From contig NZ_JAKSYH010000263.1 in NCBI RefSeq assembly GCF_022829295.1, forward strand, positions 62,001-126,000: 64,000 nt of DNA. The letters are read 5' to 3'. The stretch comes from Methylobacterium sp. J-088. GTDB lineage: Bacteria > Pseudomonadota > Alphaproteobacteria > Rhizobiales > Beijerinckiaceae. The notes beneath the pieces were generated by a model. It saw only the letters and a list, made by a program, of their open reading frames with translations, was not told where the DNA came from and ran no database searches. Both the position numbers and the translations under genes were made by a program. Of this stretch, positions 10,567 to 53,681 are shown piece after piece; within the stretch, counting starts at the first letter, position 1, and each line of letters opens with the position of its first letter.

Positions 10567-10633
10567 CGTTCGCAAGGGCGCTGTTGCGGCAGAAGCAGGG
10601 ATTTTGCGGCGCGGCCGGTGTAGGTTGCCGCCC

Positions 10634-12448
10634 GTGTCATCCGCAGCGCTCATCACCGATCCGCCAGCCTTCCTGGGTGTTTCTGCCTCCGTGACCGGCC
10701 GTCGCTGGCAGGAGCGGTGCGCCAGCACGGCGGTCCAGAACCAGATCGCCAAGATGGTGCAGGCCCATGGGCTGCCGGAGTTGCTGGCCCGCGTCCTCGC
10801 TGGCCGTGGCGTGGGACCGGACGACGCGTCCCGCCATCTTGCCCCGCGCCTGCGCGACCTGATGCCGGACCCCGATACGCTGCTCGATATGGATGCCGCC
10901 GTCCGTCGCCTCGTCCGCGCCGTGCGCCGCGGCGAGACCGTGGCGGTGTTCGGCGATTACGACGTCGATGGCGCCGCGAGCGCCGCCCTGCTGGCCGGCT
11001 ATCTGCGCGGCCTCGGCATCCGGTCGCCGATCCACATCCCCGATCGGATCACCGAAGGGTACGGTCCAAACATCGGCGCGATCACCGCGCTTGCGGCGGA
11101 TGGGGCGACCCTTCTGGTTTGCGTCGATTGCGGGACGAGCGGTCACGCCCCCCTCGAAGAGGCGGAAAAGTCGGGCCTCGACGTCATCGTCCTCGATCAT
11201 CACGCCGCCGCCGAGGTGCTGCCGCCGGCCCGCGCCGTCGTGAACCCGAACCGCCTCGACGATCTGTCGGGTCTCGGCCATCTCTGCGCGGCCGGCGTGG
11301 TGTTCCTGACTTTGGTTGCCCTCAACCGCGCCCTGCGCCGCGACGGGTTTTTCGGGCCGAGCCGGCCCGAGCCGGCCTTGACCGATTCCCTGGACCTTGT
11401 GGCTTTGGCGACCGTGGCCGACGTGGTGCCGCTCACCGGCTTGAACCGGGCGTTCGTGAACCAGGGTTTGACGGTGATGCGCCATCGTGGCCGGATCGGC
11501 CTCGCCGCGCTGCTCGACGCCGCCTCGCTGAGCGAGCCGCCGGAGGCGTGGCATCTCGGCTACGTGCTCGGGCCGCGCATCAATGCCGGCGGACGGATCG
11601 GGGATTCGGGGCTCGGCGCCCGGCTGCTCACCACGGCCAATCCGGAGGAGGCCGCGCGCATCGCGGCCGACCTCGATCATCTGAACCGGGAGCGTCAGGC
11701 CATCGAGGCGCAGGCCGTCATGGAGGCCGAAGCCGAAATGGACCACGCCGTGACGCGCGATCCCGGACGCGCCGTGCTGGTGGCCGCGAGCGCCGCTTGG
11801 CATCCGGGTGTCGTCGGCCTGATCGCGTCGCGGCTGAAGGACCGTTTCAACCGCCCGGCCTTCGCCTTCGCGCTTCGTCCGGACGGCAGCGCCACCGGCT
11901 CCGGCCGCTCGATCCCCGGGGCGGATCTCGGGCTCGCGGTACGGGCCTGCGTGGAAGCCGGGATCGCCACCAAGGGGGGTGGGCACGCGATGGCGGCCGG
12001 CGTCACCGTCCGGGCCGACGCCATCCAGCGCTTCGAGGCGCACCTCGCAACGCTCCTGGGCGCGAGCGTTACCCTAGCGCGCGCGGCCGATGCCCTGCTG
12101 ATCGATGGGAGCCTCAGCGCTGGCGGGGCCACAGCCGAAACGGTACGGCTGCTCCAGAAGGCCGGGCCGTTCGGCCAGGGCGCCCCGGAGCCGATCTTCG
12201 CGCTGGGCCGCCACCGGCTGGTGGACGCGGGCGTCGTGGGATCAAACCACGTCCGCGCCCGACTGCGCAGCCGCGACGGTCAGGTGGTGGGGGCGATCTG
12301 CTTTCGGGCGGCCGAGCGCCCCCTCGGGCTCGCCCTGCTCAACGGCATCGGCCGCGAGATGCACGTGGCCGGCACCCTCTCGTGCGACCGCTGGCGCGGC
12401 GCCGAGCGGGCGCAGCTGCGGATCGTCGATCTCGCTTCGGCCGATTGA
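10634..12448 (+). CDS. recJ: Single-stranded-DNA-specific exonuclease RecJ
   Basis: A 604-aa 5'-3' ssDNA exonuclease of the DHH superfamily, acting in RecF-type recombination and mismatch repair. The DHH motifs are FGDYDVDG (about residue 107) and VLDHHAA (about residue 185). The DHHA1 part includes GSGRSIPGADLG and a GGGHAMAAG motif. An OB-fold is expected at the C-terminus. A TTG at 10604 gives a longer frame, but the GTG at 10634 yields SSAALITDPPAFLGVSASVTGRRW, the usual RecJ N-terminus, so it is chosen. It is the last gene before the REP-rich gap in front of the GTA cluster. Confidence 0.94.
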   Translation: MSSAALITDPPAFLGVSASVTGRRWQERCASTAVQNQIAKMVQAHGLPELLARVLAGRGVGPDDASRHLAPRLRDLMPDPDTLLDMDAAVRRLVRAVRRGETVAVFGDYDVDGAASAALLAGYLRGLGIRSPIHIPDRITEGYGPNIGAITALAADGATLLVCVDCGTSGHAPLEEAEKSGLDVIVLDHHAAAEVLPPARAVVNPNRLDDLSGLGHLCAAGVVFLTLVALNRALRRDGFFGPSRPEPALTDSLDLVALATVADVVPLTGLNRAFVNQGLTVMRHRGRIGLAALLDAASLSEPPEAWHLGYVLGPRINAGGRIGDSGLGARLLTTANPEEAARIAADLDHLNRERQAIEAQAVMEAEAEMDHAVTRDPGRAVLVAASAAWHPGVVGLIASRLKDRFNRPAFAFALRPDGSATGSGRSIPGADLGLAVRACVEAGIATKGGGHAMAAGVTVRADAIQRFEAHLATLLGASVTLARAADALLIDGSLSAGGATAETVRLLQKAGPFGQGAPEPIFALGRHRLVDAGVVGSNHVRARLRSRDGQVVGAICFRAAERPLGLALLNGIGREMHVAGTLSCDRWRGAERAQLRIVDLASAD

Positions 12449-12531
12449 TCCGGCGTTAGAGCCGTGCCCGAGCGCGTTGTACACGGTACACGACACGCGT
12501 CTGCCAACACGGGTGGCAAGCGCGACATGCA

Positions 12532-12673
12532 CCCTCTCCCGTACGGGAGAGGGTTGGGGTGAGGGTTGAGAAGCGTCAGGATCGCGCGCACGTTCAAGGC
12601 GCTGACAGGGTGCGCCTCTTCCGTAAAGTTCTAATCCCTCACCCTTTTCTTCCCCCCCACGGGAGGGGGGACC
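12532..12673. repeat. BIME-like inverted REP pair, copy 1
   Basis: A perfect 22-bp palindrome CCCTCTCCCGTACGGGAGAGGG (12532-12553) is followed by a GGGTGAGGG-type tail (to 12565). After about 65 bp the mirror image appears: a CCCTCACCC tail (12635-12643), then a degenerate palindrome with long C and G runs ending about 12671. The layout equals that at 23.2 kb and 53.0 kb. Confidence 0.85.
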
Positions 12674-12836
12674 CACTCCCTGTTCGGCCAGGAGTTTGGC
12701 ACTGTCGTCTTCCGTGTGGCTCGCCAACGCAAATCTGCTAAGCTCGCGCTCAGCCGAAGGGAAGTTCGGTACCGCGCGAGCGCGTACGTCCACGACCGGC
12801 GGCACGGATGCTGTCAACGCCTCTCCCCGCGCCGGG

Positions 12837-12860
12837 CCCCTCTCCCGTGCGGGAGAGGGG
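12837..12860. repeat. Single REP-type palindrome
   Basis: The stretch CCCCTCTCCCG-TG-CGGGAGAGGGG is a perfect inverted repeat with 11-bp arms. It lacks the GGGTGAGGG tail seen in the paired copies. Confidence 0.85.
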
Positions 12861-13258
12861 GCAGGTTGCACCCCTCAGGCGCGTCGGCGTGCGACTGTCG
12901 TGGACCGTGGCATGCGTCGCAACAAGAGCCTGGAGCGGTGCGCGGTTGCAACGCGATCGGGCACGGCCCTAGGCTGGCCGGAAAACAATACGGCGCGCCT
13001 CCATGGGAAGCGCGCCGAGAGGCGGTTCGTGGTCTCAGGAACGAACTGCATCCTGTATACACGATTTTGTGTGCCCCGCTGTGGCGTCCGCACCACTGTT
13101 GCGGGCGGAGCGCAGCCTGGACCCCGCTTTTTCCCCCATCCACGGGATTATCCGGGCCCGCGGGCCTCCTGCGCGGCGCTGGACCCGATCCGGGCATGGA
13201 CGGGTCGCGCGGGGCCGCGGCCCGTGCATCGTCCGACCTCAACGCAGGACCAGACCGC

Positions 13259-14446
13259 ATGGCAAACCTTCTCGAACGGTTGGCGCGGGTCACCCGCCGC
13301 AATGCCCGCGACATGGCCCCCGCCACCAAGGCTTCCCCGGCCTTCGCGCTCTATGCCGACAATCGGGCTTCTTGGACGCCCCGCGATCCGGCGGCGCTCG
13401 CGCAAGCCGGCTATGCCCGCAACCCCGTGGTCCACCGGGCGGTCCGGCTGGTCGCCGAGAGCGCCGCGAGCCTGCCGCTGATCGCCACCGGACCCGGGGC
13501 CGAACGGGGCGGCGACCTGCTGGCGCTGCTCGCCCGGCCGAACCCGCGGGAGAGCGGCACGCATCTTCTGGAGACCGTCTACGCCGACCTGCTCCTGACC
13601 GGGACCGCTTATGTGGAGGCGGTCGCCCTCGACGGCCGGGTCGCGGCGCTCCAGGCCCTCCGGCCGGGCCGGATGCGGATGCTGCCGGGGCCCGATGGCT
13701 GGCCGGCGGCCTATGTCTACACGGCGGGCGGGCGCAGCCGCCGGTTCGACCTGCCGGCGCCCGGCAGCGCCGAGATCGCCCCGATCCTGGCCCTCAGCCT
13801 GTTCAACCCGGACGACGAGACCGGCGGCCTCGCGCCCATCACGGCGGCGGCGGCCGCCCTCGACATCCACAACGCGGCGAGCGCCTGGAACAAGGCGCTC
13901 CTCGACAACGCCGCTCGGCCCTCCGGGGCGCTGGTCTTCGCGGGTGCGACGCTGTCCGAGCCGCAATTCGACCGGCTGAAGGCGGAACTGGAGGCGAACT
14001 ACCAGGGCGCCGCCAATGCCGGCCGGCCGCTGCTGCTGGAGGGCGGGCTCGACTGGAAGCCGCTCGCTTTGTCGCCCCGGGACATGGATTTCGTGGAGGC
14101 GAAGAACGCGGCGGCCCGGGAGATCGCCCTGGCGTTCGGGGTTCCGCCCCTGCTGCTCGGCCTGCCCGGGGACAACACCCACGCCAACTACGCCGAGGCC
14201 AACCGGGCGCTCTACCGCCAGACCCTGATCCCGCTGGCGAGCCGCACCGCGCAGGCCCTCGCGGTCTGGCTTGAGCCCGCCTTCGGGCCGGTGGACCTGG
14301 AGCCCGACCTCGACCGGATCGAGGCGCTCGCGGCCGAGCGGGAATCCCTGTGGCGCCGGGTCCAGGCCGCGGATTTTCTTTCGGTGTCCGAGAAGCGTGA
14401 GGCGGTGGGTTATCCGCCGGACATGCCGGGAGCGGGGGCGGGCTGA
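13259..14446 (+). CDS. GTA/phage portal protein (HK97 family)
   Basis: A 395-aa portal protein (RcGTA gp3 equivalent), which forms the dodecameric DNA entry ring of the capsid. Typical parts are an N-terminal region YARNPVVHRAVRLVAESAASLPL, the clip/stem region (NPDDETGGLAPITAAAAALDIHNAASAW) and the C-terminal segment MDFVEAKNAAAREIALAFGVPPLLLGLPGDNTHANYAEA. The length is normal for family members (about 390). The frame is open far upstream, but the ATG at 13259 begins MANLLERLARVTR and the upstream part is repeat sequence. It is the first recognisable gene of the cluster; no terminase precedes it. Confidence 0.92.
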   Translation: MANLLERLARVTRRNARDMAPATKASPAFALYADNRASWTPRDPAALAQAGYARNPVVHRAVRLVAESAASLPLIATGPGAERGGDLLALLARPNPRESGTHLLETVYADLLLTGTAYVEAVALDGRVAALQALRPGRMRMLPGPDGWPAAYVYTAGGRSRRFDLPAPGSAEIAPILALSLFNPDDETGGLAPITAAAAALDIHNAASAWNKALLDNAARPSGALVFAGATLSEPQFDRLKAELEANYQGAANAGRPLLLEGGLDWKPLALSPRDMDFVEAKNAAAREIALAFGVPPLLLGLPGDNTHANYAEANRALYRQTLIPLASRTAQALAVWLEPAFGPVDLEPDLDRIEALAAERESLWRRVQAADFLSVSEKREAVGYPPDMPGAGAG

Positions 14447-14534: not shown

Positions 14535-14560
14535 CCCCCGCTCCCGTGCGGGAGAGGGGA
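14535..14560. repeat. REP-type palindrome (imperfect) between portal and protease genes
   Basis: CCCCCGCTCCCG-TG-CGGGAGAGGGGA is an imperfect copy of the family palindrome. Downstream, CCTGAACCGATATGGCC followed by a segment ending GCGAATCCGCAAGC has a close relative at 19.53-19.57 kb, so more than the hairpin is shared between copies. Confidence 0.75.
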
Positions 14561-16503: not shown

Positions 16504-16595
16504 GCGGCTCGAATAAGTACAGGAATCCCTCCCCCGCAGAGGCTACCGCTTCACACATCGTGCGCGCCGAGTCGGCCGCAGGATGGAGCGCAGGT

Positions 16596-16619
16596 CCCCT
16601 CTCCCGCTCGGGAGAGGGA
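16596..16619. repeat. REP-type palindrome after the capsid gene
   Basis: CCCTCTCCCG-CT-CGGGAGAGGG (16597-16618) is the family core. The following tract CCCGTCGCGTTCTCCCATCGACCCC has a close copy at 53.15 kb upstream of ccmH, so the shared unit extends beyond the hairpin. Confidence 0.85.
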
Positions 16620-16751
16620 GCCCGTCGCGTTCTCCCATCGACCCCACTGCCAGACGGAGATGGGTGAACATCGTCGCTCGCAGAGGGGGGAAGGTGGATT
16701 GCATATGGGTCGCGTCGCACGACGGACGCGACCCGCAGCCCGACGACCGCC

Positions 16752-17297
16752 TCAGCGTCCCGAATTGCCGTCGCGCAGGGTGCCGGTCGGCTCCTGCACG
16801 TGGGCCTCGAGGAACCAGAGGTGCTTGTCGACCGCCCGGGAAATCTCCGTGAAGAGATCGGCCGTGTCGGGATCGCCGGCCTCGTCGGTCTCGTCGATGT
16901 TCTCGCGGACCGCGTTGGCGTAGGTGGCGTAGCTGTCGATCAGCGCGGCGATGTGATCGGCGATCGCGTAGATCCCGGTCGGGTAGGCCGGAAGCTTGGT
17001 CCGCTCGGCGACCACCTGGGTCGAGCCGAAGGCCGTGGCGCCGAGCTGGACCGCACGCTCGGCGACGCTGTCGTTGAACTCGTCGATCTCGGTGCGGAAC
17101 CCGTCGAGCATCTCGTGCACGCCGATGAACTGCGGGCCCTTCAGGTTCCAGTGCGCCTGCTTGATCGCCAGCGCGAGGTCGATACCGTCCGCCAGCCGGG
17201 CGTTGAGGGCTTCGACCGAGACCTTCTTGGCGTTCGAGTCGGTGTTGTTGCGGGTCTTGTGCGACCGGGGGGTGTTGCTGGTGCCGGTGTCGGCCAT
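16752..17297 (-). CDS. dps: Dps-family DNA-protection ferritin
   Basis: A 181-aa Dps, which forms 12-mers that bind DNA and oxidise and store iron during stress and starvation. The ferroxidase ligands are visible: His in QAHWNLKG, His and Asp in GVHEMLDGF, and the Asp/Glu pair in FNDSVAERAVQLG. The C-terminal part DLFTEISRAVDKHLWFLEAHVQEPTG is also typical. An N-terminal extension of about 25 residues rich in Lys, Arg, Thr and Asn (SHKTRNNTDSNAKK) could bind DNA, as in other Dps. The ATG at 17297 is chosen over an upstream in-frame ATG at 17351. It lies on the strand opposite to the GTA genes, in the interruption after the capsid gene. Confidence 0.92.
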   Translation of the reverse strand: MADTGTSNTPRSHKTRNNTDSNAKKVSVEALNARLADGIDLALAIKQAHWNLKGPQFIGVHEMLDGFRTEIDEFNDSVAERAVQLGATAFGSTQVVAERTKLPAYPTGIYAIADHIAALIDSYATYANAVRENIDETDEAGDPDTADLFTEISRAVDKHLWFLEAHVQEPTGTLRDGNSGR

Positions 17298-17472
17298 AAT
17301 CGCGCTCCGTGTGGTTGAAAGGTTCGGAAGCGAAAGTGTCGATGCGGCCACAGGTTCCCCGGGCGTGACCGGTCCAGGGAACGCCGGGTGTCTGCCAGCA
17401 CTTGGCGCGCCTGGCCGTCACGGCGCGATCGAGAGTTGCGCTAAGTCCCTGTTCCGGACCGCTAATCGGCAG

Positions 17473-18381
17473 CTAGTTGCGGCGGGTGCGCGCCGTCCAG
17501 ACGGGCCGGTTGCCGCGCGGCAGCGCATCGCTCACCTGCATCTGTGACAGTTCGGCCGCGCGCGCCGAGATCCACCCGGCATGCTCGGCCACCGGGGTCA
17601 CCGCGGTGAAGCCGCCGCAGGCGGTCCGGCGGGTTCCCTGCTGCAGGGCCCCGCTCGACCAGCTCACCACGCCGACGATCCGGTAGCCGCCCGGTCCGCC
17701 GGTAAGGATCGGGCCGCCGGAATCGCCCAGGCACGCGCCGGCTCCCGCCGTCTCGGCCATGCGTCGGCGGTCCGTCACCACGGTCACCCGGTTGGCGACC
17801 TGCAGCGAGCCGATCGAGACGAGATGCGCCAGCCGCAAGGTGCGGGCCGAGCCGCGCCGGTTCTCGGCGACCACGCCGAAGCCCGCGATGTCGACCGGCT
17901 CGCCGGTGGTGATCGAGCTGGCGCCGCGCGGATCGAGCGGGGCGTAATCGGGGCCGAGGGGGCGTTCGAGCTTGAGCAGCGCCAGATCGACGCCGGGCTG
18001 CTCCTCCGGCGTCGTGCCGGGCACGAAATCGGGATGCATCGTCGTGGCGATCACCGACGTGCGGCGCTGGCGGAAGCCCCGGTCGACGCCGATCACCGTG
18101 TAGCCCGCCGGACGCATCACGCAATGGGCGGCGCTGAGGACGAGATCCGGGGCGATCAGCGTGCCGGAGCAGATCTCGCCCTCCGTGCTCTCGATGCGGA
18201 CGACGAAGCTGCGCGCCCCGTTCGGATCGCGGGTGGTCACGCCGTTGATCACCGCGGAGGCGGGTGCGGGGAGCAGTCCGGCCAACGCCCCGAACAGCGC
18301 CGCACCCAGCAGGCCGCCCCCGAAACGCCCGCGTGCAGGATGCCCGCGGAAGCCGGTCTTGCGGATCGGGCGAGGGAACAT
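17473..18381 (-). CDS. Secreted trypsin-like serine protease (S1), copy A
   Basis: A 302-aa chymotrypsin-fold protease. A signal peptide with a long n-region ends near PAPASA, and the mature form starts AVINGVTT. The triad is visible: His in LSAAHCV, Asp in VDLALLKLERPL and Ser in GACLGDSGGPIL. The N-terminal VINGV resembles the activation cleavage IVGG/VINGV of S1 zymogens. It is expected in the periplasm or outside the cell. Like Dps, it lies on the opposite strand to the GTA genes, inside the interruption. A second, shorter S1 protease is 1.6 kb away (20029-20766). Confidence 0.88.
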   Translation of the reverse strand: MFPRPIRKTGFRGHPARGRFGGGLLGAALFGALAGLLPAPASAVINGVTTRDPNGARSFVVRIESTEGEICSGTLIAPDLVLSAAHCVMRPAGYTVIGVDRGFRQRRTSVIATTMHPDFVPGTTPEEQPGVDLALLKLERPLGPDYAPLDPRGASSITTGEPVDIAGFGVVAENRRGSARTLRLAHLVSIGSLQVANRVTVVTDRRRMAETAGAGACLGDSGGPILTGGPGGYRIVGVVSWSSGALQQGTRRTACGGFTAVTPVAEHAGWISARAAELSQMQVSDALPRGNRPVWTARTRRN

Positions 18382-18889
18382 CGGGCACTCCGGGGCGCGG
18401 TCGGCGCGGGTGGCACGCCCCAGACAGGCGGGCGACGAGGCGGAGCCTAGTGCAAGGGAATGTCCTGGCCAAGCTGATGTTCCCTGCGGATCCGATCCAT
18501 CCAGGCCTGCCTCGCCGAGGTTTTTCAGCGGTTTCGCGCGGGGCGGCGTGCCGACGGGCTCGCGTCACATGATGTGTCTGCGACTGGCGCGAGCCCCGCC
18601 CCGGGTCTCGGTTGGCGCATGGAGAGAAGGCGATCCGCCGATTTCCCGGACAGAAGGAGCGGTTTTTGGCAAATGCCATCCGCTTGCGAAACGATACGGT
18701 AGCCCTACCGTGCTATGAACGAGGACACGCGCAACCCGCCTCGGTAAGGGCTGGTGCCATGTTTGACCGAAGGGCACGGCACGCCGCATGCACGTCGAGT
18801 ATCTGCCACACGGGTCTCCCGGGAAGAATATCAGGACGTCTCAGCCATGAGCGATCTGATTGCAGCAGTGGTCCTGGGGATCCGAAACA
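18382..18889. other. 508-bp gap, no gene recognised
   Basis: It must hold the promoter of the protease on the left. A small perfect inverted repeat ACGGTA-GCCC-TACCGT lies at 18696-18711. A 93-codon frame (18612-18893, plus) has no recognisable features and I do not call it. Confidence 0.5.
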
Positions 18890-19117
18890 ATGATCGGCTT
18901 GCTGGTGGTTGCCTTGGCTGGCGCGGTAATGGGGTGGTACTTCCGGGTTGGCTTCGTCATTATTGCCTGTTTAGTATTCCTTGTCGCTGATATTATCCGC
19001 ATTCTTCTGAATTCGAGTTTCCAGTTTGCAGATATTTTGATCCTGCTTGCCTACATGTCCGCTCTGCAGGGTGGCTTCATGCTTGGTGCTTATCTCAAGC
19101 ACAGGCGCCGTGATTAG
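18890..19117 (+). CDS. Small hypothetical membrane protein
   Basis: A 75-aa protein with two or three hydrophobic segments (IGLLVVALAGAVMGWYF, VGFVIIACLVFLVADIIRILL, FADILILLAYMSALQGGFMLGAYL) and a basic C-terminus KHRRRD, so the tail is probably cytoplasmic. Base composition is visibly lower in GC than its surroundings. The ATG at 18890 is preferred to an upstream TTG at 18860. No family is recognised. It is the only plus-strand gene in the interruption between capsid and connector genes. Confidence 0.5.
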   Translation: MIGLLVVALAGAVMGWYFRVGFVIIACLVFLVADIIRILLNSSFQFADILILLAYMSALQGGFMLGAYLKHRRRD

Positions 19118-19354
19118 AGTGCTCTTTGCCGAAGGGGGTGTGGGTTCGACCTGCGAGCGCGCATCGGAGCACAGCCTTGGGCCGTTCCCGATCGTCACGT
19201 GCTGGACCGCGACGAACTCACGCCGGCAGGCACGTCGCGCTTTGCCGCCCATGCCGGTATCCACCGGAGATCTGAGAACATCGTAGCCCGCGCGGGGGCT
19301 GCAACATTCATAGATTTGGGTTGAGCATTGACGTTCGTGACGGAGCGCGACTGG
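19118..19354. other. Gap between the small membrane ORF and the repeat block
   Basis: No supported gene and no clear hairpin is seen here. Together with the repeat at 19355-19462 it makes a non-coding stretch of more than 500 bases up to 19662. Confidence 0.4.
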
Positions 19355-19462
19355 CTCCTTCTCCCGTGCGGGGAGGGATCAGCGGTGGGGGTGGTTCAGG
19401 TTCGAGCGTGACGGTGCCTTCTGCACCACCCCCACCTCCAACTCTTCCCCACAAGGGGAGGA
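19355..19462. repeat. BIME-like inverted REP pair, diverged copy
   Basis: CTTCTCCCGTGCGGGGAGGG (19358-19377) is followed by GGTGGGGGTGG. About 35 bp later the mirror image CCACCCCCACC appears, with TCTTCCCCACAAGGGGAGGA (19443-19462). Beyond it, CCTGAACCGGTATGTCC and GTGAATCCGCAAGCGCG (to about 19577) repeat the flank found at 14.57-14.62 kb. Confidence 0.75.
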
Positions 19463-19662
19463 GCGCGCGTCGCGGCCGGCGATGGGTGTGCATCGTAGCA
19501 CGCAGGCGAGAGGGGACCTGCGCTCGGCCCTGAACCGGTATGTCCGAAACCGATGTGTGAATCCGCAAGCGCGCGGAGGAGGGCTCCGACGCCGCATTCG
19601 GCCACGTCGGCGTCACGGCCGCGCGGGGCTCGCTGCGCAGCCGGGCGCGGCCCGGAGACGGC

Positions 19663-19773
19663 TCAGAGCCACCAGATCACAGTGCCGCGCAGATAGGAGG
19701 CCGCGGCCCAGAGGATAATCGCCGTCATCGAGAGCGTCAGGCCCCAGCCCAGGCGTTGTCGGTGGTTCAACAT
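19663..19773 (-). CDS. Putative 36-aa single-pass membrane protein
   Basis: The frame reads MLNHRQRLGWGLTLSMTAII followed by LWAAASYLRGTVIWWL: a basic start and one hydrophobic helix. The frame could start further upstream (to 19872), but the ATG at 19773 gives a sensible small membrane protein. There is no recognised family and no neighbour support, so this is tentative. Confidence 0.35.
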   Translation of the reverse strand: MLNHRQRLGWGLTLSMTAIILWAAASYLRGTVIWWL

Positions 19774-20028
19774 GCGTCGCGGATACCCCGGGGCTGGCTC
19801 GTCCTCGCGTGCGCAACCGCCCTTGTCGTGCCCGGGAGCGAATCCCGCTTGGGATGGCCGCCCGGTCGACAAAAGACCTCGGCATCGCGCCGACCCGTTA
19901 TTCCCGAGACCTGTCGCGAGACGGAGTCAGGTGTTAACGCGTTCGGTTCAGTAACCGATCCGTATTCGGTCCTGCGGGTCCGTGGGCGATGCAGACTGCG
20001 CAGGGGGCGGGCCGTCCCCAGCGGCGTA

Positions 20029-20766
20029 CTACTCGGTCCAGCGGGCGCGCAGGCCCCATCCGCTGAGCACCTGATCAATCCAGCCGCGTTGCGGCCCGAC
20101 CAGGACGCCCTGGGTGAGGCCGCCGCAGGTGCCTCCGATCCAGGCGGCGAGCGCTCGCACGGCGCCGTCCGGCCCGATGATCGGACCGCCGGAATCGCCC
20201 TGGCAGGCCCCGCCGGCGCTGCCCTTCAGCCAGACCAGGATGCGGCTCGGCCCGTAGGGCTCGATCACCGGTAGATTCAGGCTGCGGTAGGTGCCGGTGG
20301 AGCGCGGATCCCCGGGCCTGGCGGCGCCGTAGCCGCCGAGGGTCAGGTCTTCACCCGCCCGTGGCGGCGCGGTGCTCAAGGTCACCGGTGCGAAGCGCGC
20401 CGGCAGCGGCGTCGCGGTGCGCAGGAGTGCGAGGTCGATGGACCGCCGCCGGGCCTTCGCGGCGCCCGCGTCGTAGCCCGGATGCACCGCCCGCGCCGCC
20501 ACCTCGACCAGCACCGGCGCCCCGGACTCGTCGCGGAAATGCACCCGGTGCTGCACGGCGTCGGCGAGGCAATGGCCGGCGGTAAGCACCGTGTCGGGAG
20601 CGAGCACCACGCCCGTGCAGACGCCGCCCTTCGCGGACAGGACCATCACGGCCCCGCCGGGCGCCGTCTCGGACCCGCCCACGATGGCGCGCACCGGGCC
20701 GCCCGCCAGCGACAGGGCGACCGCGAGGACGGCGATGGCCGCCGGGCGGCACTTCGAGACCAGCAT
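20029..20766 (-). CDS. Secreted trypsin-like serine protease (S1), copy B
   Basis: A 245-aa S1 protease. The signal peptide MLVSKCRPAAIAVLAVALSL ends near GPVRA, giving a mature N-terminus AIVGGSE that fits the classical IVGG zymogen cleavage. The triad is His in LTAGHCLADA, Asp in SIDLALLRTATPL and Ser in GACQGDSGGPII. Cysteines around GGVCTGV/GHC and GACQGD/GGTCGG suggest two disulfides. It is shorter than and clearly diverged from the protease at 17473-18381. It runs divergently from the GTA connector gene with only 27 bp between the two start codons. A TTG at 20781 is an alternative start. Confidence 0.87.
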   Translation of the reverse strand: MLVSKCRPAAIAVLAVALSLAGGPVRAIVGGSETAPGGAVMVLSAKGGVCTGVVLAPDTVLTAGHCLADAVQHRVHFRDESGAPVLVEVAARAVHPGYDAGAAKARRRSIDLALLRTATPLPARFAPVTLSTAPPRAGEDLTLGGYGAARPGDPRSTGTYRSLNLPVIEPYGPSRILVWLKGSAGGACQGDSGGPIIGPDGAVRALAAWIGGTCGGLTQGVLVGPQRGWIDQVLSGWGLRARWTE

Positions 20767-20793
20767 CGGACCACCGCTCAAGAGGGACGCACC

Positions 20794-22144: not shown

Positions 22145-22378
22145 GAGAGGTCCCGTGCAAGCGTCGCGCTCCTTTCCCGGACAGGTGGAGCGAGCGCGGA
22201 ACCTGATCCGGGAGCCAGCACGGAAATCGTCGCGCAGCGCCGCATTGCGGGCGCTTCGCGCCGTCTCGCGCCGGATCCCGGGTCGCATTCCGCTTTCGCT
22301 GCATGCGCCCGGGACAGGGCGCTCGTGGGACCGGCGGGGCGGCCCGCACATCGACCTTATCGAGACAGGAGGAATCCG
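22145..22378. other. 234-bp gap before the major tail gene, with hairpin-forming repeat
   Basis: In a compact, overlapping gene block this gap is unusual. It contains inverted pieces TCCCGGA and TCCGGGA (about 22177-22230) and CCCGGG motifs at about 22277 and 22308, resembling an intergenic palindromic element of a different type from the CCCTCTCCC family. No gene is seen. Confidence 0.4.
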
Positions 22379-22789
22379 ATGGGCGCGCAGAAGGGCAGGG
22401 ACCTGCTGATCCGGGCCGGCGACGGCGCGGGGGGCTTCGTGGCGGTGGCGGGCCTGCGCAGCCGCCAGATCACCCTGAACGCCGAGACCGTGGACGTCAC
22501 CAACGCCGATTCCGCCGGGCGCTGGCGCGAATTGCTCGCCGGGGCCGGGGTGCGCCGGGCCGCGATCGCCGGGTCGGGCGTGTTCCGCGACCAAGCCTCG
22601 GACGCGCGGCTGCGCCTGATCTTCTTCGAAGGGGTCATCGAGACCTTCCAGATCGTGGTGCCGGCCTTCGGGATCCTGGAGGGCCCGTTCCAGATCGCGA
22701 GCCTGGAATACCGCGGCGACCACGCCGGCGAGGTGACCTTCGACATGAGCCTCGATTCGGCGGGCGCGCTCGCCTTCGCGGCGGCCTGA
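22379..22789 (+). CDS. Phage/GTA major tail protein (TP901-1 family, gp9-like)
   Basis: A 136-aa tail tube subunit (RcGTA gp9 equivalent). Features are GRDLLIRAGDGAGGFVAVAGLRSRQITLNAETVDVTNADSAGRWRELLAGAGVRRAAIAGSGVFRD, typical of TP901-1-type tube proteins, and a C-terminal strand with FQIASLEYRGDHAGEVTFDMSLDSAG. A strong CAGGAGG ribosome site precedes the ATG, as expected for an abundant structural protein. Confidence 0.92.
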   Translation: MGAQKGRDLLIRAGDGAGGFVAVAGLRSRQITLNAETVDVTNADSAGRWRELLAGAGVRRAAIAGSGVFRDQASDARLRLIFFEGVIETFQIVVPAFGILEGPFQIASLEYRGDHAGEVTFDMSLDSAGALAFAAA

Positions 22790-22805: not shown

Positions 22806-23624
22806 ATGGCGAACCGGATCCGCGGCGCGGTGCCGCTCGACCTCGGCGGACGGCGCTACACCCTCTGCCTCACCCTCGGGGCGCTGGCCGAGCTGGAGGA
22901 TCTGCTCGGGGCCGGCGATCTCACGGGCCTCGCCGCGCGCTTCACGGCCGGCCGGCTCTCGGCCCGCGACCTGATCGCCCTGCTGGGCGTCGCCCTGCGG
23001 GGCGGCGGCCATGACCTCGACGACGCGGCGGTGGCGGGGCTGCCGCTGGCCGGCGGGCTCGATGACGTCACGACGGCCCTCGGGGCGGTGCTCGCCGCCG
23101 CGTTCGGGGAGGCGCCGGGGCCGGCAAACCCGCCTCAGGAGGCCGCCCGATCACCTCGAGACACGGTACACGACAGTGGCGCGCCGGCGCGCCTGGTGGA
23201 CGCGACGGACTCCCTCTCCCGTGCGGGAGACGGCCCGGGTGAGGGACGAGAACCCGCAGACTTGATCGCTCCGTCGACGCGCGTCGCGTGCGCGCCTCCA
23301 TCGGAATCCGCGTATCCCTCACCCTGTCCCTCTCCCGCACGGGAGAGGGGACCCGCGCCTTATTCGGGAGAGACGCCCCTCCCTTCGGCGGAGAGCGCTC
23401 CAGGATCGGAGCCGGATGCCCCGGTCCCGACCCGCCTGCCGAATGCCTTCCCGTGGGACGACGCCATGTCCCTCGGCCTCGGCGTGCTGGGCTGGCGCCC
23501 CGGCGACTTCTGGTCGGCGACCCCACGGGAGTTCGCCGCAGCCCTCGGCCGGCGCGCCCGGTCGGAGGCGCTGAGCCGGGCGGCCTTCGAGGATCTCCTC
23601 GCCGCCTATCCCGACCGGACCTGA
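22806..23624 (+). CDS. GTA gp10-family protein fused in frame to a gp10.1-like tail assembly chaperone through a REP element
   Basis: A 272-aa frame with three parts. Residues 1 to about 112 are the GTA gp10 family (GAVPLDLGGRRYTLCLTLGALAELEDLLGAGDLTGLAARF). Residues from about 208 on are the small tail assembly chaperone (FPWDDAMSLGLGVLGWRPGDFWSATPREFAAAL, gp10.1), normally a separate gene of about 60-70 codons. The roughly 95 residues between are Pro/Ser/Arg-rich and come from a BIME-like repeat (about 23155-23400) that contains no stop in this frame. The ORF is continuous as seen. It may give a fusion, or the chaperone may restart at the ATG 23466 or nearby. Which form exists in the cell cannot be told from the sequence. 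Confidence 0.82.
   Translation: MANRIRGAVPLDLGGRRYTLCLTLGALAELEDLLGAGDLTGLAARFTAGRLSARDLIALLGVALRGGGHDLDDAAVAGLPLAGGLDDVTTALGAVLAAAFGEAPGPANPPQEAARSPRDTVHDSGAPARLVDATDSLSRAGDGPGEGREPADLIAPSTRVACAPPSESAYPSPCPSPARERGPAPYSGETPLPSAESAPGSEPDAPVPTRLPNAFPWDDAMSLGLGVLGWRPGDFWSATPREFAAALGRRARSEALSRAAFEDLLAAYPDRT
23155..23400. repeat. BIME-like inverted REP pair inside the gp10/gp10.1 reading frame
   Basis: The boundary motif ACACGGTACACGAC (23161-23174) is shared with 12.48 kb. CCCTCTCCCGTGCGGGAGA then GGGTGAGGG (23212-23245) is followed about 70 bp later by the mirror image CCCTCACCC and CCCTCTCCCGCACGGGAGAGGGG (23315-23350). The element lies wholly within an open reading frame, unlike the other copies. 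Confidence 0.85.
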
Positions 23625-23638
23625 GACGGGGCTGAAAG

Positions 23639-24211
23639 ATGGCCGACACCCAAGCCGACATGCAGGATTCCGCACGGGCCGAGCGGCTCCAAACCCTCGA
23701 CCGACTGGCCCAGAATTTCGGCCGCAGCCTCGACACGGCGCTGACCCGGGGCGCCGCCTCCGGCCGGAGCCTCGACGGCGTGCTCGGGAGGATCGGCACG
23801 CGGCTCGCCGGCGCGGCGACCCGGGCGGCGGGGGGCGCGATCCAGTCCGGGGTCACCGGCCTCATCAATTCCGTGCTGGGTGCGGGCTCCGAGCCCGGCT
23901 TCGCCCGGGGCGGCGTGTTCCGCGGAGGGCGGGTGCAGCCCTTCGCGGCCGGCGGGGTGGTGGCGGCGCCGACCTATTTCCCTATGGCGGGCGGGACCGG
24001 CCTCATGGGCGAGGCCGGGCCGGAGGCGATCCTGCCGCTGGCTCGCGGCGCGGACGGGCGCCTGGGCGTCGCGGGGGGCGGGGCCTCGGCGCGGCCGGTC
24101 TCCGTGACGGTCAACATCGCCACGCCCGACCCGGCGGCGTTCCGCCGGTCCGAGGCGCAGGTGACCGCAAGCCTCGCCCGAGCGGTGGCGCGCGGCCAGC
24201 GGGCGACGTGA
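23639..24211 (+). CDS. GTA tape measure protein (short, gp11-like)
   Basis: A 190-aa protein. RcGTA-like particles have short tails and a tape measure of about 200 residues, so this length is normal here. The Gly/Ala-rich central part (GRIGTRLAGAATRAAGGAIQSGVTGLINSVLG), FARGGVFRGGRVQPFAAGGVVAAPTYFPMAGG and LMGEAGPEAILPLARGADGRLGV are typical of the C-terminal end of tape measure proteins. It would set the tail length and be ejected at delivery. It follows gp10/10.1 by 14 bp. Confidence 0.88.
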   Translation: MADTQADMQDSARAERLQTLDRLAQNFGRSLDTALTRGAASGRSLDGVLGRIGTRLAGAATRAAGGAIQSGVTGLINSVLGAGSEPGFARGGVFRGGRVQPFAAGGVVAAPTYFPMAGGTGLMGEAGPEAILPLARGADGRLGVAGGGASARPVSVTVNIATPDPAAFRRSEAQVTASLARAVARGQRAT

Positions 24212-50907: not shown

Positions 50908-52908
50908 ATGATCGTCGAGACCGGCCATTTCGCGCTCGCGCTCGCCCTGGCGATCTCCCTCGTCCAGATGGTGATGCCGATCTGGGCTGCCCGCTCGGGC
51001 GACCCGGCACTCCGCCAGATCGCCTCGCAGGCGGCGCTCGGCGCCTTCGCCTGCATCCTCTTCGCCTTCGCGGCGCTCACCTACGCGCACGTCACCTCGG
51101 ACTTCTCGGTCCAGAACGTCGTCGAGAACTCGCACACGCAGAAGCCGCTGATCTACAAGATCTCCGGCGTCTGGGGGAACCACGAGGGCTCAATGCTCCT
51201 GTGGGTGCTGATCCTCACCCTGTTCGGCGCCTGCGTGGCGGCGGCGAAGAACTCCGTGCCGCCGCGGCTGCGAGCCAACACGCTCGGCGTGCAGGGATTG
51301 ATCACCTTCGTGTTCGTGTTGTTCATCATCACGACCTCGAACCCGTTCAGCCGCGTCATCCCGGCGCCGCTGGAGGGCAACGATCTCAACCCGCTGCTGC
51401 AGGATGTCGGCTTGGCGATCCACCCGCCGCTCCTCTATATCGGCTATGTCGGCTTCTCGATCAGCTTCGCCTTCGCGGTCGCCGCGCTGATCGACGGCCG
51501 GATCGACGCCGTCTGGGCCCGCGCCGTGCGGCCCTGGACGCTCACCGCCTGGAGCTTCCTGACGCTGGGCATCGCGATGGGCTCCTACTGGGCCTATTAC
51601 GAACTCGGCTGGGGCGGCTGGTGGTTCTGGGATCCCGTCGAGAACGCTTCCTTGATGCCGTGGATCGCCGGCACGGCGCTGCTGCACTCCACCGTGGTGA
51701 TGGAGAAGCGCGACGCCCTGAAGGTCTGGACGGTGTTGCTCGCGATCCTGACCTTCTCGCTCTCGCTGATCGGCACGTTCCTCGTTCGCTCGGGCGTGAT
51801 CACCTCGGTCCATTCCTTCGCCACCGACCCGACCCGCGGCGTCTTCATCCTGGCGATCCTGATTCTGTTCATCGGCGGCTCGTTGACGCTGTTCGCATGG
51901 CGGGCGCCGCTGCTCCGGCAGGGCGGGCTGTTCGCGCCGATCTCGCGCGAGGGGTCCCTCGTCCTCAACAACCTGTTCCTGGTCGCGGGCTGCGCCACGG
52001 TGCTCGTCGGCACCCTGTATCCGCTGCTCCTCGAGATGCTGACCGGCGAGAAGATCACGGTCGGGCCGCCCTTCTTCAATGCGACCTTCGTGCCGCTGGC
52101 GATTCCGCTCCTGCTGATCGTGCCCGCCGGGCAGGCTTTGGCCTGGAAGCGCGGCGACGTGCTCGCTGCTGCGCAGCGCCTGTTCGCCGCTTTGGCCCTG
52201 GCCCTGGTGGTCGGTTTCGGGGTGCTCGCCCTGACCTGGGGCGGCCCGGTGATGGCCCCGGTGGGGATCGGCCTTGGCGTCTATCTGCTGATCGGCTCGG
52301 CGCTGGAGATCGTCTCCCGCGCCCGGGGTTACGGATCGAGCCGTGCCCGCTCGCTCGGCCAGATCGGGCGCCGCGCCATCGGTCTGCCGCGCTCGGCCTG
52401 GGGCACGGCGCTGGCCCATGCCGGCGTCGGCGTGGTGGTGTTGGGCATCGCCGCGCAGGGATGGGCCGCGGAGGGGCTGGCCACCCTCAAGCCCGGCCAA
52501 AGTCTGACGACGGGGCCTTACACGGCGACCCTGGAGAGCGTCGCGCCCCGCAAGGGGCCGAACTACGAGGAGGCCGCCGCCTATCTCACGATCCGGACCC
52601 GCGCCGGCGACGAGGTCGGGCAGGTTGAGACCGGCAAGCGCTTCTACCCGAGCCGCAAGATGGCGGTCACGGAATCCGGCCTGCTGACGATCGGGGTGAG
52701 CCAAGTCTACGCGAGCCTCGGCGAAATCGGCCAGGACGGCAGCGTCGGCCTGCGGCTGTACTACAAGCCGCTGGTGCTGCTGATCTGGCTCGGCGCCGTG
52801 GTGATGGCGGCGGGCGGTGGGCTCTCGCTCACGGACCGCCGGATGCGCGTGGGTGCCCCCGCCAAGGCGAAGGCACGGCCGATACCCAACGCGGTGCCGG
52901 CCGAGTGA
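50908..52908 (+). CDS. ccmF: Cytochrome c haem lyase CcmF
   Basis: A 666-aa integral membrane haem lyase component. The WWD haem-handling motif is [65 protein letters not shown] is another signature, with conserved periplasmic His. It has about 14-15 hydrophobic segments and a periplasmic beta part before the last helix ([32 protein letters not shown]). It works with CcmI and CcmH to attach haem to apocytochromes such as the one at 33.7 kb. Confidence 0.96.
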
Positions 52909-53006
52909 GGACGGAGATGAAGGCCCCCGCGGATCTCCCTCCCCCCTCTCAGCTGCCGGATTGCCATTTCGGCTCCGGCGATTTCGCTTCCGGATCGGGC
53001 GCGGGG

Positions 53007-53146
53007 CCCCACTCCCGAGCGGGAGAGGGACCGGGTGAGGGGCGAGAACCTTCAGAAAATGGCTCGACCTACCGACACTTCGGTGCCGTGCTCGATCCTG
53101 AGATTTCTCGTCCCCCACCCCAGCCCTCTCCCGCGCGGGAGAGGAA
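53007..53146. repeat. BIME-like inverted REP pair between ccmF and ccmH
   Basis: CACTCCCGAGCGGGAGAGGGAC then GGGTGAGGGG (53010-53042). About 65 bp later come CCCCCACCCC and CCCTCTCCCGCGCGGGAGAGG (53112-53144). The flank CCCGTCGCGTTCCCTCATCGACCCC matches that at 16.62 kb. The pair separates two genes of one pathway that are normally almost adjacent. Confidence 0.85.
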
Positions 53147-53186
53147 GCCCGTCGCGTTCCCTCATCGACCCCAGCGTCGAAAGGAG

Positions 53187-53681
53187 ATGCGCGAACTTCG
53201 TCCTGCAAAGGTAGGAGGGGGAGCACGCGTCCGTGTCGGCGCCGCGCTCATGCTCCTCGCCATGCTCACCGCCCCCGCACTGGCGGTCCAGCCTGACGAA
53301 GTCCTGAAAGATCCGGTGCTGGAGCATCGTGCGCGCGAGATCTCGGCCGAGCTGCGCTGCCTCGTCTGCCAGAACCAGTCGATCGACGATTCCGATGCGC
53401 CGCTCGCCAAGGATTTGCGTCTGATCGTGCGCGAGCGCCTGCAGAAGGGCGACAGCGACAAGTCGGTGCTCGACTACGTCGTGGCACGCTACGGCGAGTT
53501 CGTGCTGCTGCGCCCGGTCTTCGCCCTGCACACCCTGCTGTTGTGGCTGACGCCTGTCCTTGCCGTGCTGCTTGGCGGGTTCGGCATCTGGCGCCTCGCG
53601 CGCCGCCGCGTGCCGGCGACCGCTCGAAGCTTGTCCGCCGCCGAGGAGGCGGAGGTCGCCGCGCTCCTGAGACGGGAGTAA
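53187..53681 (+). CDS. ccmH: Cytochrome c maturation protein CcmH (CycL)
   Basis: A 164-aa thiol-disulfide component that presents reduced apocytochrome to CcmF. The motif [11 protein letters not shown] is followed by [44 protein letters not shown], all diagnostic. A C-terminal membrane helix lies at about 115-140 ([25 protein letters not shown]). The signal-like segment [14 protein letters not shown] precedes VQPDEVL. The ATG at 53187 has AAGGAG near it but lies in repeat-derived sequence. The ATG at 53250 gives a short signal peptide and is an alternative. No ccmG gene is next to it. Confidence 0.92.

Follow-up and report, generated by a model that had tools for sequence, protein, structure and literature searches.

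A REP-like repeat within an open reading frame that joins two GTA tail-assembly chaperone domains in Methylobacterium

The open frame and the repeat within it

The stretch of DNA analysed here, referred to as the window, comprises 64,000 nucleotides (positions 62001-126000 of contig C223) from the 6.4-Mb draft genome of Methylobacterium sp. J-088. It carries an RcGTA-like head-tail cluster in the order portal, protease, capsid, connector, head completion, tail completion, major tail protein and fused ORF, followed by a tail part with genes for the tape measure protein, DUF2460, hub, NlpC/P60 and GTA_TIM. The fused ORF (22806-23624, plus strand) consists of 272 codons and contains two domains in a single frame: the gp10 domain (Phage_TAC_11, PF11836; 22821-23108, amino acids 6-101, E 1.1e-23) and the gp10.1 domain (Phage_TAC_6, PF09550; 23448-23618, amino acids 215-271, E 4.3e-18), both on the plus strand. 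It is preceded on the same strand by the gene for the major tail protein gp9 (22325-22789, PF06199 match) and followed by that for the short tape measure protein gp11 (23639-24211), which scores 160.8/220 bits with the RcGTA_tape model and is below the cut-off.

An earlier note on this DNA had described one open frame of 272 codons in which gp10 and gp10.1 are fused in frame around an inverted pair of REP-type sequences, and this description is confirmed. Its figure of 95 residues for the part encoded by the element does not hold, as the two domains are 113 residues apart (amino acids 102-214).

Open frames were also seen for the remaining head-tail genes that gave matches in the window. No match to the PF03237 terminase was found on the window's contig, and the three matches in the genome are located on contigs C260 and C270. 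The nearest recognised gene 5' of the portal gene is recJ (region 10604-14446). The genes for the capsid and the head-tail connector are separated by a region of about 4 kb (16543-20781), which contains one ferritin-like and two trypsin-like genes on the minus strand; such genes are unusual within a GTA cluster. The opening GTG of the prohead protease ORF (14546) is overlapped by a lone REP palindrome (14537-14558), and the true start of the protease may therefore be in or after the repeat.

The REP pair in the fused ORF has its first arm at 23212-23246, made up of the palindrome CCCTCTCCCGTGCGGGAGACGG plus GGGTGAGGG, and its second, inverted arm at 23315-23349, where the palindrome starts 116 nt beyond the start of the first. 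Each arm is 35 nt, the two are 91% complementary and 68 nt lie between them. The 22-nt palindrome occurs eight times in the window at three mismatches or fewer, compared with 0.03 occurrences expected, and at 138 sites in the genome at one mismatch or less, compared with none for the control. Among the sites listed there are nine pairs with a spacing of 111-117 nt, six of them with exactly 116 nt, and further pairs with 72, 131, 137 and 187 nt. This is a short palindrome in many copies, often arranged as inverted pairs, as is characteristic of REP and BIME sequences. No RAYT transposase (Y1_Tnp, PF01797) was matched in the draft genome, and a RAYT-driven element was rejected on this ground; the arms read GGGTGAGGG and contain no GTAG tag; because of these two absences the element is classed as REP-like only. 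A second REP pair, also with a spacing of 116 nt, is found at 53008-53145 near the start of the ORF 52905-53681, which could be a further in-frame case.

Alignment with two relatives that have the genes unfused (L003 and L015) shows that the inserted sequence extends beyond the REP pair. The earlier note was right about the pair itself but not about the extent, since the insert covers about 265 nt (23138-23402, ends set by eye to within a few nucleotides), while the net difference in length to both relatives is 271 nt. The left part of the insert (23144-23201, plus strand) is matched over part of its length by 13 further genomic sites, of which 11 are close to the end of a contig, and the right flank (23383-23403) has two further matches. 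At three other places (L241, L242 and L249) both flanks are matched with REP sequence between them, and the insert is consequently regarded as a composite repeat that is larger than the REP pair. In L244, L246 and L247 the left part resembles sequence just 5' of the start of a transposase-like gene, again close to the ends of contigs, and a link between the composite repeat and an insertion sequence is therefore possible.

The insert can encode about 88 residues. At least one of the six frames is open in all 29 repeat clusters listed (the window copy included, and three places seen twice), and an open frame through the repeat is by itself unsurprising. That more than chance is involved is argued from the frame being kept in five species, as described below. 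A chance open frame was rejected as the whole explanation, even though the repeat is often open in some frame.

The junction of gp10 and gp10.1 in relatives

The junction was compared in 169 loci, consisting of 89 genomes of the genus with a PF09550 match (111 were searched) and 80 gp9-based matches listed, which are partly from the same organisms as the genus set. Both domains were located in all of these loci except L083. Of the 89 genomes of the genus, 82 have gp10.1 in frame -1 relative to gp10, five have the two fused and two have them offset. The offset loci (L006 and L009) have a frame break within gp10 and keep the junction; the break is 5' of an intact slip site and stem, and reflects either decay or an assembly error. 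When identical junctions are removed 143 loci are left, with 133 in the -1 register, six in register 0 and four in the remaining register. The register-0 loci are the five fused ones together with L089, which has separate ORFs. Fusion as the usual state in the genus was considered and rejected in view of the 82 loci in the -1 register, and many of the long open-frame values represent overlapping frames.

The clade of the window has 26 members (support 1.0), of which 21 are unfused. All 21 have AAACCCT at the junction, and in the 19 with an unbroken gp10 it reads A AAC CCU in the X XXY YYZ phase of a slip heptamer. The heptamer is situated one codon 5' of the gp10 stop, or five codons in L002 and L023. 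Over the 133 unique loci in the -1 register, the gp10 tails (4,947 nt) contain 54 cases of AAACCC in slip phase and the gp10 domains (40,227 nt) contain none, while three occurrences are in other phases.

The heptamer is followed after 5 nt by a stem, mostly of 10-13 bp and in some members with mismatches, and this distance is at the near end of the 5-9 nt at which stimulatory structures are placed. RNAalifold recovers the stem unaided from a plain MAFFT alignment of 19 junctions. The cells of the stem are paired in 92.6% of cases, and a shift of one side by 1-3 columns lowers this to 31-47%. Covariation is 0.436 compared with 0.155 in shuffled alignments, a value reached by none of 500 shuffles. 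These shuffles ignore relatedness; in addition, misalignment of the 3' arms in L003, L015 and L020 biases the result against the structure. A weaker measure is the count of doubly changed pairs (six compared with 4.5 when shuffled, reached in 43 of 500). In folding tests with single-base shuffles 14 of the 19 junctions have z scores of -2.9 or lower and five fold weakly, with only -1.7 to -0.5. In a test of the stem arms L002 and L023 give p 0.15, and the low pair counts of L010 and L014 are an artefact of anchoring on a later AAACCC, the stem following the true heptamer in both. With its heptamer in phase and its conserved structure, the junction of this clade looks like that of a -1 frameshift pair.

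Start codons at the junction give a more mixed picture. Among the 21 unfused clade members, 14 (with L003 and L015 among them) lack an ATG, GTG or TTG for gp10.1, and the other seven have an in-frame GTG. The earlier note's term "normally separate" genes is thus correct in that the two are unfused in relatives, but it passes over the -1 register in 82 of 89 genomes and these 14 startless cases. An internal methionine as the start of gp10.1 was ruled out for the clade, because the residue concerned is leucine in 25 of 26 members. The motif FPWDD 5' of the gp10.1 domain is likewise kept in 25 of 26 members with only synonymous changes, the exception being one change from Asp to Glu.

For the 54 slip-bearing loci as a whole, 25 are without ATG, GTG or TTG at the junction and 19 have a start that overlaps the gp10 stop. 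Such an overlapping start is present in 56 of the 133 unique -1 loci, and 16 have an ATG; ATG is found at the junction in most Rhodobacterales loci and in five Afipia/Bradyrhizobiaceae-like loci. Neither AAACCC nor a start is present in 26 of the 133 (for example L030, L039 and L041), where other slip sequences such as GGACCCT may be in use. Outside the clade only six of 40 heptamer loci reach a z score of -2, including those of Microvirga (L057), Aurantimonas (L107) and Aureimonas (L086). The apparent frameshift signal is not the whole story for the order.

The fused genes of five species

Fusion is common to five species (L001, L004, L007, L016 and L025). In the earlier note it was suggested that relatives with the same fusion and no element would speak against a role of the element, and no such relative was found: all five same-ORF cases among the 89 genus genomes have the element or a remnant of it, and the only same-ORF case among the 79 gp9-based matches listed with both domains located is L031, which to judge from its length is the same contig as L007. 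Assembly error is ruled out by the fact that five genomes are fused with different linkers.

The alignment to L003 and L015, relatives that lack the element, also identifies the target that the earlier note had asked for. The insert interrupts the locus at the stop codon of gp10, with the slip site and its 5-nt spacer on one side and the stem on the other. The remnant of the slip heptamer in the window reads AAACCCG (23126-23132, plus strand) where the 21 unfused clade members have AAACCCT, and it is retained in four of the five fused species and lost in L016. The TAG stop of L003 and L015 is replaced by CAG (23136-23138, plus strand), and CAG is found at this position in all five fused genes. 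On the far side of the insert the sequence GGATCGGAGCC...GGTCC (23403-23432, plus strand, limits by eye) is probably the displaced remnant of the ancestral frameshift stem-loop, judging from the L015 alignment and from folding; the matching stretch folds differently in several other fused species. Only L025 aligns to both unfused relatives with a single insert block (148 nt plus a 6-nt gap). For L001, L004, L007 and L016 the pairwise alignment to at least one unfused relative scatters the insert over several blocks, and its ends have therefore been set by eye except in L025.

Since the length of the insert (265 nt by eye, 271 nt net) is 1 modulo 3, the -1 register becomes a single frame. The RNA 3' of the window's slip remnant has a z score of +0.70 and folds no better than dinucleotide-preserving shuffles, compared with -3.1 to -7.5 for five of six relatives and -1.7 for L003 in the same test. 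The window consequently lacks the make-up of a -1 frameshift pair, with both domains in the same frame, AAACCCG as the slip site and the stem displaced by about 265 nt. A ribosome that entered the -1 frame at the old slip site would end at a TGA within the REP (23240-23242, plus strand).

The linkers of the five fused genes are 219, 327, 336, 336 and 504 nt, all multiples of three. They have no stops in frame 0 compared with 12 in the other two forward frames, and five stop-free linkers have a simulated chance probability of 0.01-0.05. Three length changes are confined to single species (168 nt more in L007, 9 nt less in L016 and one REP arm fewer in L025), and three changes by multiples of three contribute an extra factor of 1/27 if independence is assumed. 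The additional 168 nt of L007 contain a different inverted repeat, CTCCTCCCC...GGGGAGG, which is also in frame, so the tether seems to be tolerant of repeated insertions.

The two end domains are under purifying selection. In the fused species dN/dS is 0.06-0.23 for gp10 and 0.14-0.34 for gp10.1, similar to the 0.08-0.34 and 0.13-0.35 in five unfused relatives. Substitutions in the linker are distributed almost evenly over the codon positions (28/26/28 between the window and L004) and other linker pairs have no steady excess at the third position, suggesting that the frame of the linker is kept and its residues are not. The AlphaFold model of the fusion (mean pLDDT 69.6, pTM 0.54) scores well for the gp10 domain and the first half of gp10.1, with pLDDT 44-65 for residues 251-272. 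The linker is modelled without secondary structure at pLDDT 41-59, and as only two alignment rows cover it this is weak evidence for disorder; the tether is probably disordered.

A tree based on GTA DNA places the five fused loci and the unfused L003 in one group (0.978; 96), and on these data monophyly of the five is not rejected (AU p 0.164). Trees from rpoB, gyrB and parE contradict a fused clade: a node with support 97 omits L016 and a node with 93 joins two fused with two unfused species. The attempt to use the species tree as proof of a single insertion thus failed. The simplest account, though not a proven one, is a single insertion that recombination afterwards moved or removed.

Origin of the fusion and its relation to known systems

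The ORF is probably a constitutive fusion of two GTA tail-assembly chaperones in which a REP-like insertion has replaced programmed -1 frameshifting. In the ancestor a single start would have given a short gp10 and, by a -1 frameshift at A AAC CCU, a long gp10-gp10.1 protein, the shift being aided by a stem-loop 5 nt downstream, much as for the lambda proteins G and GT. The composite REP-like repeat, about 265 nt long, would then have separated the slip site from the stem by inserting at the stop of gp10, which would have been changed to CAG. Translation in the zero frame would now join gp10 to gp10.1 by way of a tether of about 113 residues that the repeat encodes, with selection maintaining the open frame and both end domains rather than the sequence of the tether. 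This proposal builds on the anatomy of the locus, the -1 register and covarying stem of the relatives, the shared fusion and the conservation of the frame, all of which are established at the level of sequence. Frameshifting presumably takes place in the relatives, and the fusion protein is presumably made and functional; the short form may now be dispensable or made in another way. The GTG codons at some junctions and the stems missing from others reduce our confidence in the constitutive fusion.

These GTG codons are of importance for the view that relatives use termination-reinitiation, with the conserved stem acting as a terminator or processing hairpin, in which case no frameshift has been lost. 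It gains from the starts that overlap the gp10 stop in 56 of the 133 unique loci, from the ATG present in 16 and from the GTG in seven of the 21 unfused clade members. We consider it unlikely, because 25 of the 54 slip-bearing loci and 14 of the 21 clade members have no start at the junction, the clade's stem begins 5 nt past the heptamer, and of the 56 occurrences of AAACCC in gp10 tails 54 have the slip phase. Another view is that two proteins persist in the fused species, either because gp10.1 is made from an internal start (GTG or TTG) within the linker, as the earlier note had suggested, or because the fusion is cleaved in a tether that is predicted to be disordered. GTG or TTG codons do occur in each of the five linkers, and in two cases a pair of species has one at the same position (TTG 183 nt 5' of the gp10.1 domain in L001 and L007, GTG 90 nt 5' of it in L016 and L025). 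No start is found at a position common to all five, the nearest candidate in the window is the TTG at 183 nt, and translation from within the linker would not require all of the sequence 5' of the start to stay open; the internal start is left unsupported, and the persistence of two proteins is rather improbable.

The remnant heptamer raises the question of whether recoding has been inverted, such that the zero frame gives the long fusion and residual -1 slippage at AAACCCG gives a short gp10 with 38 extra residues, ending at the TGA in the REP (23240-23242). AAACCCG is retained in four of the five fused species, and in those four the -1 frame stops in the insert, within the REP in L001 and L004 and elsewhere in L007 and L025. 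Against this, the slip site is lost in L016, no stem is found at the right distance from the remnant (z +0.70 in the window) and no 10-bp arm has more than eight of ten pairs in the four fused loci tested, which makes inverted recoding quite doubtful. Slippage normally affects a minority of ribosomes, and the ratio of short to long form would therefore be turned over if it did occur. In its wider form, that the repeat made a programmed frameshift into a constitutive fusion and may have overturned recoding, with readthrough giving the long form and slippage the short one, the idea is a tentative possibility of low probability. That the fusion is instead a neutral relic of a GTA in decay could be suspected from the linker, which evolves without codon-position bias, from the 22 of 111 genus genomes with no PF09550 match and from the window's contig, which has no PF03237 terminase match. 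Such decay is quite unlikely, given dN/dS values of 0.06-0.34 over both domains in all five fused species, within the range of five unfused relatives, linkers that are all stop-free multiples of three, and open frames in the other matched head-tail genes of the window.

Phage lambda needs both the short and the long form of its tail chaperone, and a ratio of short to long set by frameshifting is widely conserved in long-tailed phages. The unfused relatives resemble the G/GT arrangement in having two frames in the -1 register just before the tape measure gene with a slip heptamer near the end of the first, and in the window's clade there is also the stem 5 nt downstream. The difference is that this is a GTA, and that the signal in the window's species is broken and replaced by a permanent fusion. 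If the constitutive fusion is correct, there are five species with an apparent signal that has been split and a long form made in the zero frame, beside sister species that keep the signal, and the need for the short:long ratio can be tested directly for that reason. It would also be an instance of non-coding repeat sequence that came to serve as a tether within a protein. A frameshift in the GTA, if true, would mean that gp10.1 is wrongly bounded in such genomes, and if recoding has been overturned the fused species would show that a working GTA does not depend on the customary short:long ratio of its tail chaperones.

Frameshifted tail chaperones are known from phages (PMC4276943, with a -2 shift, PMC3556154, PMC8601537, PMC4882933 and PMC12846349), among them phages of Rhodobacter capsulatus. 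A +1 shift has been proposed for a different gene, a hydrolase in a Wolbachia element (PMC10299305). In RcGTA, g10 (PF11836) is described as tail chaperone 1 and g10.5 as tail chaperone 2 (PMC11409702), and the main text of that paper does not contain the word 'frameshift'. The present locus is similar to RcGTA in having a PF11836 gene together with a second tail chaperone; it differs in that in most of the Rhodobacterales loci compared gp10.1 starts with a separate ATG at the end of gp10 or close to it, whereas the window has one ORF.

In-frame REPs inside genes have been described in several species (PMC3733652), and the earlier note's comparison with the Rickettsia palindromic elements is fair as an analogy but not beyond that. 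The likeness to both is a repeat that lies inside a gene and keeps the frame. What differs here is that an apparent recoding site has been split and two frames joined, rather than one protein lengthened, and that the insert encodes about 88 residues compared with the 20-30 residues given in PMC3733652 for dimers and grouped repeats and 43-82 for clusters. While in-frame REPs and frameshifted phage tail chaperones are thus already known, the open-access literature searched yielded no report of frameshifting in GTA gp10/gp10.1 or of a repeat replacing a frameshift, and hence none of either step for a GTA.

The only phage record matched by the ORF is L264 (MW091529.1), which has AAACCCTTGA at the end of gp10, at the corresponding junction. 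In its annotation gp10.1 begins only past FPWDEA and is probably too short.
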